Below, piece after piece: positions 38,530 to 41,148 of a stretch of 41,148 nt of DNA. Numbering within the stretch: the stretch's first letter is position 1; the number at the start of each line of letters is the position of its first letter. This stretch comes from an uncultured Nitrospiraceae bacterium. Lineage in GTDB: Bacteria; Nitrospirota; Thermodesulfovibrionia; Thermodesulfovibrionales; Dissulfurispiraceae. The DNA is taken from assembly GCA_903822005.1 (NCBI GenBank), contig CAIJNL010000022.1:1-41148 (forward strand). Direction: 5' to 3'. The translations under genes and the position numbers were made by a program. Under the pieces are notes generated by a model, which did no database searches, was not told the DNA's origin, and saw nothing but the letters and a program-made list of their open reading frames with translations.

Positions 38530-38617
38530 GGCAGACCTCCGGCATCTATTATAACGGGTATGATAGGGGGAAGACAGCAGGACAAAACGTTTACTAATTT
38601 AACAAATCAAGCAATTT

Positions 38618-39037
38618 CTAATTTTGGCTATTGATAGGGGGCATGGGTGCTGCCAACTTTATTTCAAATTCAGTTATCGTTTTTTCAGGTTCTTCATCAA
38701 TCTTTATATACACCTTGTAGACTCCAGCAACCTGTATCTGAAAAGGAATCAACCCAAGGTGCATCATCAGTTTTGTTCCTTTAACATCTTTTGGCGCCGT
38801 TGTCTTTATCGGACCCAGTTGATTCTTGTCCGGTGTCTCGAGCCTGAAAGTTACATCATTAAATGAGCCTGTGGAGATATCCCATTTAGATACTATATAT
38901 ATTCCCGGCATCATAAAAGGGACTATTGGCACGACCACGTCTGTCCCGTAGACTCCGATAAAGGTTGTCTTGCCGCTAATTTCCTGCCGCACATCATCAC
39001 AGACAAAACAGTCTATAAGTTTTGACTTCTTTATCAT
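38618..39037 (-). CDS. DUF6941-like small protein, third gene of a toxin-antitoxin-type operon
   Basis: The protein is 139 residues and looks like an all-beta domain: IDCFVCDDVRQEISGKTTFI then GVYGTDVVVPIVPFMMPGIY, and later FQIQVAGVYKVYIKIDEEP. The opening CDDVRQEISGK..FIGVY pattern matches what I recall of the DUF6941 family, of unknown role. There is no signal peptide. Its ATG overlaps the stop codon of the XRE gene by 4 bases, so the two are coupled. Confidence 0.6.
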   Translation of the reverse strand: MIKKSKLIDCFVCDDVRQEISGKTTFIGVYGTDVVVPIVPFMMPGIYIVSKWDISTGSFNDVTFRLETPDKNQLGPIKTTAPKDVKGTKLMMHLGLIPFQIQVAGVYKVYIKIDEEPEKTITEFEIKLAAPMPPINSQN

Positions 39038-39528
39038 GGCAAAAGCTCCTTATAATCAATATTGAAAACTTCAGCTATTTTTTTGTATGTATCAATATCT
39101 GCGGTATACCCAGCTCTTTCAACACGTGAAAGATTAGATTGTTTAATGCCGGTTAGCCCGGAAAGCGTTTTCTGATCCATGCTGTTTATCAGCCGGTAAT
39201 ACTTCACTTTGTTAAGCTTACCAGTCAAAACATCCTGACGAAGCTCGGCGTGCAATTCTTCCTGCGCCTGCTGAAATGCCTTTTTGCCGGCATCGGTCGC
39301 AGTATACTTTGTTATGAGATCGTCTATATCTGTTAGATCGTCACAGTGATAGGTAAAGCCATCAGCCGGCAAGAAGAAAACAATGAGGCACGGAGCAACT
39401 CTTTTACAGCTGTGCGATAAAATTGATAATTGCACTACACCAGTCGTTCCGGCGGTATGACTGCCATAGGCAATTATCGGCGATACAGTTGGCTGAGGAA
39501 TAATAAATCTATTATTAGCAGCGTCCAT
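39034..39528 (-). CDS. XRE-family regulator, likely antitoxin
   Basis: The protein is 164 residues. The C-terminal 55 form a helix-turn-helix of the Cro/CI type (KYYRLINSMDQKTLSGLTGI, KQSNLSRVERAGYTADIDTY, ending IAEVFNIDYKELLP). A helical stretch precedes it (AGKKAFQQAQEELHAELRQD), typical of HigA-like antitoxins. The first 60 residues match nothing I recognise and could be a real extra domain or an over-long start; no better start with a ribosome site was found. It lies 1 base after the RelE-like gene, as in higBA order. Confidence 0.7.
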   Translation of the reverse strand: MDAANNRFIIPQPTVSPIIAYGSHTAGTTGVVQLSILSHSCKRVAPCLIVFFLPADGFTYHCDDLTDIDDLITKYTATDAGKKAFQQAQEELHAELRQDVLTGKLNKVKYYRLINSMDQKTLSGLTGIKQSNLSRVERAGYTADIDTYKKIAEVFNIDYKELLP

Positions 39529-39529
39529 G

Positions 39530-39904
39530 CTAGTTCAAGCTCCCGGACCCTTTGAAATACTTTAGATACACAGATTTTATCCTCTCAATATGAGGAGCAT
39601 CTTCGGTGAAGGCTATTTTTCTGCTAATTATTTCACAAATAATAATCAGCCCTGCCTTTTCATCAACAAAGTAAAAAATCCGAAAATCACGAAATTCGCT
39701 GCACTTGAGACTGCGAACATCCATACCCTGCTTCTTCAAAAAAATTACTTCTTTAGCCTCGACAGTTACATCGCTAAATTGATGCGGGAAAGGATCTGCT
39801 TCAAGCATTTTCAGCCTTACTAAAATCTTGTAGCCTAAAGCTTCATCGTCCCGCATTATGTACGCAAGGGCTTCCTCCGCAGACTGTTCAAACTTAACTT
39901 TCAT
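39530..39904 (-). CDS. RelE/HigB-like toxin
   Basis: The protein is 124 residues. The pattern fits a RelE/ParE-fold toxin: FEQSAEEALAYIMRDDEALG, a long helix with KILVRLKMLEADPFP, then the strand block MDVRSLKCSEFRDFRIFYFV DEKAGLIIICEI (positions about 60-93) and a charged end. RelE-fold toxins cut mRNA on the ribosome or poison gyrase; which applies is unknown. ATG at 39904 follows a near-consensus promoter. It is first in the three-gene operon. Confidence 0.72.
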   Translation of the reverse strand: MKVKFEQSAEEALAYIMRDDEALGYKILVRLKMLEADPFPHQFSDVTVEAKEVIFLKKQGMDVRSLKCSEFRDFRIFYFVDEKAGLIIICEIISRKIAFTEDAPHIERIKSVYLKYFKGSGSLN

Positions 39905-39916
39905 GCGGATACCTAA

Positions 39917-39944
39917 AATATATCACATCTGATAAGATTGTCAA
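39917..39944 (-). promoter_or_regulatory. Promoter of the RelE-like/XRE/DUF6941-like operon
   Basis: On the minus strand, a perfect TTGACA (39939-39944) and TATATT (39917-39922) are 16 bases apart, very close to the ATG at 39904. Confidence 0.65.
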
Positions 39945-40015: not shown

Positions 40016-40338
40016 CACGCCATGAACAGATAGCCGCATATATCATGAAGGAGAGCACATCGATGCAATGGATTTACGCATGAGACAATTTTACTCTATT
40101 GCATGAGAAATTTGAAGCTAAATTTTTTTATTTCACAACCAGCTGTATTTATTAATTGCGGCAGTTTTGGTTCCATATCTTCAATTTGCGCTTTATCTAT
40201 GTGAAAAATCATAGTCAATTTATTGCTGTCTATCGTCTATTATCAAGGGTATGAGAGGAAGATGACAATAGTTTATATGCCCAACCTGATCAGTTACAAT
40301 TCAGATGTGACTGGAAATGCCGAGAGGGAGGAGCTGTC
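40016..40338. other. AT-rich gap without a supported gene
   Basis: There is no convincing gene. A 38-codon minus-strand frame (40096-40212, MIFHIDKAQIEDMEPKLPQL...) exists without a ribosome site and may be the tail of a lost gene. No RelE/HigB frame is visible upstream of the HigA-type gene that follows. Confidence 0.4.
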
Positions 40339-40629
40339 ATGTCTATGCATAATCCCGCCCATCCGGGTGAGGTTTTAAAAGGTTTATTTATTGAGCCCTT
40401 AGGGCTTTCGATTACTGATGCCGCAGAGCGTTTGGGGGTTGCCCGGAAGACTGTGTCCAAAATAGTAAATGGGCATGGCGCCGTTACCGCTGAAATGGCC
40501 TTGAGGCTGGAGATTGGCTTTGGCTCAACAGCGCAGACCTGGTTGAATATGCAGGCGGCCTATGACCTATGGCATATCAAAGACCTGCGTAAGTCCTTGC
40601 GGGGGCTCGCTGAGGCATGTTGGGGCTGA
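40339..40629 (+). CDS. HigA/VapI-type antitoxin-like XRE regulator
   Basis: The protein is 96 residues. It is a classic HigA-type helix-turn-helix: [71 protein letters not shown]. The start ATG at 40339 has GGGAGGAG upstream. HigA proteins neutralise HigB toxins encoded directly before them, but no such frame is found in the preceding 430 bases. It is therefore an orphan regulator here or the remains of a pair. Confidence 0.85.
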
Positions 40630-40707: not shown

Positions 40708-41008
40708 TCATGGCTCATGTGCTTTTTCAAGGTCTGTTTTTTTCGGTCCACGTGCGCCAGCTAGTTTCTGCGCTTTGTAGTCTAACTCATAAAGGTAATT
40801 AAGAAGATCTTCACATATCTCGATTGCAAGCTTTAATTCCTCCACTGTCGGGGCAGCCAACTCATGTGCAGCTTCATTCCCAATAAACCGCAAACTATGT
40901 AGGTTAGATACAATATTTTTAGGCAGTGGGATGTTGACCATATTATCTATCTTTGCTTCAAGATTACTACCCCTTATTCCCTTATTCGCACATATGCCTT
41001 CAAGTAGC
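40708..41008 (-). pseudogene. DUF4145-family gene truncated by an IS21-type element
   Basis: The open frame runs through 40708-41008 without a stop and ends exactly at the IS boundary. The visible part (LLEGICANKGIRGSNLEAKI, NIVSNLHSLRFIGNEAAHEL, PTVEELKLAIEICEDLLNYL) is the C-terminal half of a DUF4145 domain, whose family members are about 200 residues and begin well upstream of R.ALEGIC. An internal ATG at 40941 would give only 77 residues and lacks a ribosome site, so I treat the gene as interrupted. DUF4145 proteins are common in accessory and restriction-related regions; their function is unclear. Confidence 0.75.
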
Positions 41009-41148
41009 TGTTACGTCCCAGCCACTCGGTACCGATTTTAGGGGGGCAAATCCCACCTAACCGGTACCAGTTCTAAGGTATCCAATCCCACCAAAACGAG
41101 ACCAGTTTATCAGGGTTTAATCCCAGGCAAACGAGACCACCTGTAAGA
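41009..41148. mobile_element. IS21-family insertion sequence, one end with multiple terminal repeats
   Basis: The element begins TGTTACGTCCCAGCC at 41009. It then shows imperfect copies of a unit of about 35 bases: GGTACCGATTTTA...AATCCCACC, GGTACCAGTTCTA...AATCCCACC, GAGACCAGTTTAT...AATCCCAGG, and a further GAGACCA start. A 5'-TG tip followed by repeated internal sites is the typical terminal structure of IS21-family elements, where they bind the IstA transposase. The istAB genes lie beyond the window. Confidence 0.75.

Follow-up and report, generated by a model that had tools for sequence, protein, structure and literature searches.

Organisation of the operon

The window analysed here, that is the whole stretch of 41,148 nucleotides, is one whole contig of a draft genome of an uncultured Nitrospiraceae bacterium, and carries a compact operon of three minus-strand genes which encode, in this order, a putative toxin of the HigB/RelE type, an antitoxin-type protein of the XRE family and a member of the DUF6941 family. 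All three reading frames are intact. The genes and the elements associated with them are as follows.

39530..39904, minus strand: HigB/RelE-type toxin, 124 amino acids (predicted fold and profile comparison)
39034..39528, minus strand: XRE antitoxin-type protein, 164 amino acids (HTH_3, and homologues at 16 other loci beside the same toxin family)
39334..39528, minus strand: N-terminal extension of the antitoxin, approximately residues 1-65, partner-specific, candidate addiction tag (boundary approximate, function putative)
39040..39210, minus strand: helix-turn-helix (HTH) domain of the antitoxin, approximately residues 107-163 (Pfam HTH_3 and relatives)
38618..39037, minus strand: DUF6941 third gene, 139 amino acids, all-beta (PF22091 and predicted structure)
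39046..39051, minus strand: Shine-Dalgarno sequence AAGGAG of the third gene, eight bases 5' of its ATG (sequence)
39917..39944, minus strand: promoter-like site TTGACA-16-TATATT (11 of 12 consensus matches; predicted)

The toxin and XRE genes are separated by one base (39529), and the XRE and third genes share four bases (39034-39037), so that the tight packing described in a first-pass annotation of this DNA agrees with the coordinates. The single promoter which that annotation placed ahead of the operon corresponds to the promoter-like site, in which a TG precedes the second hexamer and which lies 12 bases from the toxin start. An operator-like repeat cluster had also been proposed; short 8-nt repeats and imperfect palindromes are present, but they are weakly supported over chance in this AT-rich DNA.

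The toxin and the XRE protein

The first protein falls below every Pfam cut-off (ParE_toxin, 13.7 bits, E=0.09, cut-off 23), and its assignment to the RelE group therefore required evidence from structure and profiles. As a search of PDB sequences with toxin profiles returned chance matches only and did not find RelE, structure comparison was used instead. A confident model built from 14 sequences (pLDDT 91.6, pTM 0.85) has the RelE (BECR) fold, and its top structural matches in the PDB are RelE-superfamily toxins throughout, including, by VIA-align, a toxin of a Streptococcus pneumoniae toxin-antitoxin (TA) pair (6af4, Z 11.8) and Mycobacterium tuberculosis HigB1, the toxin of a toxin-antitoxin-chaperone (TAC) system (Z 10.6, 105 residues aligned, root-mean-square deviation 3.1). 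The link to a curated family is by profile-profile comparison only, via four proteins that pass the ParE_toxin cut-off (hhalign probability 97.5, E 6e-12). In the 14-member alignment R75, which aligns with the arginine of the RelE-type YR..Y motif, is invariant, and R95, which aligns with the terminal basic residues, is present in most members. The fold and these conserved basic residues suggest that the protein is toxic. The first-pass annotation had counted a RelE-like protein that is non-toxic and unrelated to the XRE protein as evidence against its proposal; the model has a RelE/HigB fold, and an XRE gene adjoins the toxin gene at every locus. Weak toxin-profile matches in Desulfobacterota were rejected as relatives, being ordinary ParE_toxin proteins.

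The second protein had been correctly recognised as an XRE protein, in which the HTH lies C-terminally (residues 109-162; HTH_3, 31.7 bits, cut-off 23). PADLOC and NCBIfam scans gave generic HTH or sub-threshold matches only.

Homologous operons carry SecB or DUF6941

A profile of the antitoxin was searched against 395 genomes of the window's phylum, and gave ten clear homologues (>150 bits), the next-best matches (at most 36 bits) being ordinary HTH proteins. The third gene beside these ten is SecB-like in eight and encodes DUF6941 in two, the window and one other genome. One SecB-like third gene tested by Pfam matched PF02556 (41.7 bits, cut-off 26), and the remainder were assigned by alignment and a local profile. 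A scan of about 85,000 species together with local profile searches added five SecB-type loci, one of them in the Deferribacteres, and a DUF6941-type locus (L073) in a Desulfobacteraceae genome. A DUF6941 search of 247 genomes of the Desulfobacteraceae phylum gave a fourth DUF6941-type locus (L096), and searching those genomes for the toxin revealed no further close homologue. In this set, searched in depth in two phyla and counted partly with profiles built from its own members, a third gene lies directly downstream of every toxin-XRE pair (17/17; 13 SecB, 4 DUF6941, 0 bare). At a few loci (L042/L069, L066, L074) the sequence is cut short or the antitoxin frame is interrupted, but the third gene can still be read.

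This placement of SecB exactly where DUF6941 stands agrees with the proposal of the first-pass annotation, that of a TAC-like operon with a new type of third partner. The annotation had also raised the possibility that DUF6941-like genes are rarely found with this pair. This holds from the side of DUF6941, most of whose genes are unlinked, but not from the side of the pair, which in this set was never found without SecB or DUF6941, and DUF6941 also recurs with HicAB.

The DUF6941 triad is found in the same gene order in three other genomes, the set spanning two phyla, with identities of 31-60% for the toxin, 24-53% for the XRE protein and 34-58% for DUF6941, a recurrence which by sequence comparison is more than chance. 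In quick trees with long branches, one branch splits the SecB group from the DUF6941 group for both the toxin (supports 98 and 83) and the XRE protein (supports 97 and 97). DUF6941 proteins from the toxin-XRE operons also cluster together (support 89). This is consistent with the three genes travelling as a unit, and a single exchange of partner suffices to explain the pattern.

The N terminus of the antitoxin differs, in the aligned sequences, according to the third partner. The earlier count of about 60 unexplained N-terminal residues needs correction, as approximately 105 residues lie ahead of the HTH. Those from about 66 to 105 also occur in the SecB-type antitoxins, which leaves roughly the first 65 as partner-specific. 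In their N-terminal part, SecB-type antitoxins have in common a motif of the form E-K-I-x-Y-x-P...F-x-W-x-M-P, after which comes a charged segment that looks helical; DUF6941-type antitoxins are without this motif and have different and variable N termini. The SecB-type motif is conserved in operons of both Nitrospirota and Deferribacteres (L003, L036-L042, L065-L072, L075), and is a candidate for a natural N-terminal chaperone-addiction segment (ChAD). In published TACs it is a C-terminal ChAD of the antitoxin, HicB included, that confers SecB dependence, and this segment is exchangeable between systems and remains functional on model proteins when placed artificially at the N terminus (PMC5105189, PMC6377645).

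The third protein

That the third protein is DUF6941-like proved to be an understatement, as it is a true family member which passes the Pfam gathering threshold (PF22091, 43.8 bits, cut-off 27), as do its counterparts in the three related operons (52.4, 51.8 and 62.2 bits). SecB was not matched in the Pfam scan of this protein even at E<=1. A model from 22 sequences (pLDDT 92.5, pTM 0.81) consists of strands only, and its neighbours by Foldseek and VIA-align are immunoglobulin (Ig)-like sandwiches, namely UNC119, PDE6D, the Wzt sugar-binding domain, RhoGDI and complement domains. These matches are weak (TM-score about 0.45, Z 8-10) to a very common fold, and as such fix the fold class of the model and not its function. 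The SecB fold, a four-stranded sheet with a long C-terminal helix (PMC6377645), is absent among the listed neighbours, although absence from a list is not proof. In the literature searched, with most subscription journals outside its coverage, we found no mention of DUF6941 or PF22091, and no DUF6941 example among reports of TA systems with other third partners.

Most DUF6941 genes are stand-alone; in one family (f29), for example, many genomes have such a gene upstream of one that resembles a tRNA-synthetase gene. In a non-random sample 14 of the 83 genes examined are TA-linked, and the share in the draw from the Desulfobacteraceae phylum is 5/10 above the cut-off. That every DUF6941 protein belongs to a TA system was considered and rejected, with 27 further per-genus loci having no TA neighbour of the kinds searched. 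As most of the genes examined lie away from TA pairs, the family has other roles. In another family (f15; L005, L006, L008, L009, L010) DUF6941 adjoins a conserved Cys-containing protein of about 192 amino acids (FDCG..CAP..CC), and the two such proteins scanned had no Pfam match. On mobile DNA, no DUF6941 was found in phages; among viral contigs the DUF6941-type profile gave no confirmed match and the XRE profile matched nine HTH genes of generic type, with neither this toxin nor DUF6941 beside any of them; plasmids gave one weak partial Rhizobium match to DUF6941 and none to the XRE protein.

DUF6941 in HicAB operons

DUF6941 also accompanies HicAB, in nine operons from eight genomes, one of which has an operon of each order. 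Five loci have the order DUF6941-HicA-HicB (L011, L015, L020, L021, L022), with HicB passing PF15919 in all five and HicA matching PF07927 at 18-27 bits. Four have the order HicA-HicB-DUF6941 (L102, L104, L125, L127), with HicB passing PF05534 in the three scanned; the HicA of L102 has no Pfam match and was assigned by a local profile that included it. One further locus (L099) has the order HicB-DUF6941. Nine HicA neighbours compare with approximately 0.26 expected among about 82 loci; the expectation derives from 22 genomes, which have about 4.8 HicA genes apiece, and the comparison is indicative only, the loci being related.

Comparison of HicB tails with two-gene relatives was made for the HicA-HicB-DUF6941 type. 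The residues that follow the ribbon-helix-helix (RHH) domain number 0-12 in 26 HicBs without a third partner and 49-63 in the four HicBs followed by DUF6941, a pattern in line with known TACs, in which the ChAD is a C-terminal tail (PMC5105189, PMC6377645). Two further HicBs with long tails (80 and 85 residues) are each followed immediately by a different gene of no known family, so that in the compared sequences long antitoxin tails accompany a third gene. These genes are candidates for further third-partner families.

L189:1073-1366 and L192:575-1285, minus strand: further HicB with unknown gene (97 and 236 amino acids, no known family; HicB tails 80-85 residues)

A proposed chaperone-like role for DUF6941

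We consider it somewhat better than even, with a probability of roughly 0.57, that the operon is a tripartite type II TA system of TAC-like design, in which the DUF6941 beta-sandwich is a non-SecB replacement of the chaperone and binds an addiction extension of the antitoxin. In such a system the HigB/RelE-type toxin would cut mRNA on the ribosome, and the XRE protein would bind the toxin and repress its own promoter via the C-terminal HTH. The N-terminal extension of the XRE protein would prevent stable folding, or mark the protein for degradation, until bound by the co-made DUF6941 protein. Were DUF6941 to become limiting or be drawn away, for example by stress or a phage protein, antitoxin would be lost and the toxin would act. 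Gene order, conservation of the triad, the exchange of SecB for DUF6941, the accompanying difference at the N terminus of the antitoxin and the parallel with HicAB are features of the sequences themselves; from these we infer the instability of the antitoxin and its stabilisation, chaperone activity, and release by stress or phage, the last by analogy with CmdTAC and HigBAC only. More tentatively, and with odds slightly short of even, DUF6941 may represent a second class of dedicated antitoxin chaperone, unrelated to SecB. HigBA-like and HicAB operons would then have acquired it independently, in each case along with an addiction extension of the antitoxin.

Several points weigh against the chaperone model. 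The contact between DUF6941 and the antitoxin is deduced, and the toxicity of the first protein is likewise read from sequence. Among the four DUF6941-type antitoxins there is little conservation of the N-terminal extension, the five HicBs found in DUF6941-HicA-HicB operons form part of another HicB group, and of the 83 DUF6941 genes in the non-random sample 69 have no TA pair as neighbour.

An alternative is that DUF6941 acts as a co-antitoxin which blocks the toxin itself, leaving the XRE protein mainly as repressor, as in HipBST and PaaR-PaaA-ParE. Tight co-translation with the pair and strict linkage would fit this equally well, and DUF6941 does accompany two unrelated toxin families. However, SecB holds the same place in this operon family and its known role in TACs is antitoxin stabilisation (PMC5105189), and the part that depends on the partner sits on the antitoxin, with longer HicB tails where DUF6941 follows; we thus regard a co-antitoxin as unlikely. 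It is about as unlikely that DUF6941 is a ligand sensor, an Ig-like sandwich whose binding of a lipid, a sugar or a small molecule would make antitoxin stability dependent on that signal. Lipid-binding UNC119 and PDE6D and the sugar-binding domain of Wzt are among its structural neighbours, but at the low scores and for the common fold noted above, and a sensor of this kind would be compatible with the chaperone model.

There is also a small chance that in this genome the operon has degenerated or lacks toxicity, comprising a repressor and an inactive RelE-fold protein, as some HigB homologues are harmless (M. tuberculosis HigB2 and HigB3; PMC9098466). This is in contrast to three intact frames, a ribosome-binding sequence ahead of the third gene and a near-consensus promoter, and to the invariance of R75 and wide retention of R95 at the positions of RelE-type basic residues. 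Least probable of all is that the third gene is a passenger behind the pair with no role in toxin control. The predominance of DUF6941 genes elsewhere in genomes would be in keeping with a passenger, but gene order and overlapping or near-overlapping genes have been kept at 24-37% identity across two phyla, there are no bare pairs, SecB occurs in the same place, and DUF6941 has joined HicAB repeatedly.

Genomic surroundings

Other features of the window near the operon are listed below.

38545..38576, no strand: 32-nt direct repeat, left copy, at the 5' end of yacP (81% identical to the right copy)
40236..40267, no strand: 32-nt direct repeat, right copy (81% identical to the left copy)
40339-40629, plus strand: HigA/VapI-like HTH antitoxin gene with no recognisable HigB toxin beside it (HTH_3, 40.4 bits)
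40708-40941, minus strand: short DUF4145 fragment, probably a truncated gene (31.8 bits)
41049-41139: 21-nt repeat in three copies with 35-base spacing, at the contig end (sequence repeats)

The two 32-nt repeats bracket the triad and its upstream region. In a genome of the same genus (G001, L172) yacP is present and the triad absent, which suggests that the triad was inserted at the start of yacP. Upstream of the Desulfobacteraceae triad lies a gene with a Panacea (SocA-like) antitoxin domain (L073:1795-2460, plus strand; PF13274, 43 bits), hinting at a TA-rich region.

Comparison with known systems

Toxin control is divided among three genes in HipBST, PaaR-PaaA-ParE and omega-epsilon-zeta. 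Compared by description, the third genes of these systems are regulators or split parts of toxin or antitoxin, and not DUF6941. HipBST is a three-gene TA system (PMC9325769). The two-gene HigBA and HicAB type II systems share toxin folds and antitoxin DNA-binding domains with the operons described here, but lack a third gene and have short antitoxin tails (0-12 residues after the RHH in HicB). Stand-alone DUF6941 (PF22091) proteins belong to the same family as our third protein, but are mostly encoded by single genes outside TA operons.

The chaperone-dependent TA systems in the literature cited here all use SecB relatives. SecB-type helpers have been shown to act as phage sensors in CmdTAC and HigBAC, where capsid and tail proteins of phages draw CmdC and the chaperone of HigBAC away (PMC11618068; PMC11980606, citing a 2024 study). 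If our reading is correct, two unrelated TA families would have a naturally swapped helper with a different fold, which would mean that helper dependence of antitoxins evolved more than once, and a function could be assigned to the DUF6941 family. On the more tentative reading, that of a second chaperone class, chaperone addiction would be a convergent design of general use and not peculiar to SecB, and DUF6941 proteins encoded on their own might serve as small chaperones of a general kind or as sensors.

The closest comparison is with the TACs, namely M. tuberculosis HigB1-HigA1-SecB-like, HigBAC and CmdTAC. As in these, the order is toxin, antitoxin, third gene, the type II toxin and antitoxin genes are adjacent, the toxin is of HigB type, the HTH antitoxin has an extra segment outside the HTH, the third gene encodes about 130-140 amino acids, and homologous operons carry SecB. 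In contrast to the TACs, the third protein is an all-beta, Ig-like DUF6941 and not SecB, and the extra segment of the antitoxin is N-terminal, the candidate extension being natural and N-terminal in both SecB- and DUF6941-type antitoxins and the described ChADs being C-terminal (PMC5105189, PMC6377645). As the SecB component was tested for and is absent, we do not class the operon of this window as a TAC, but it probably works like one.
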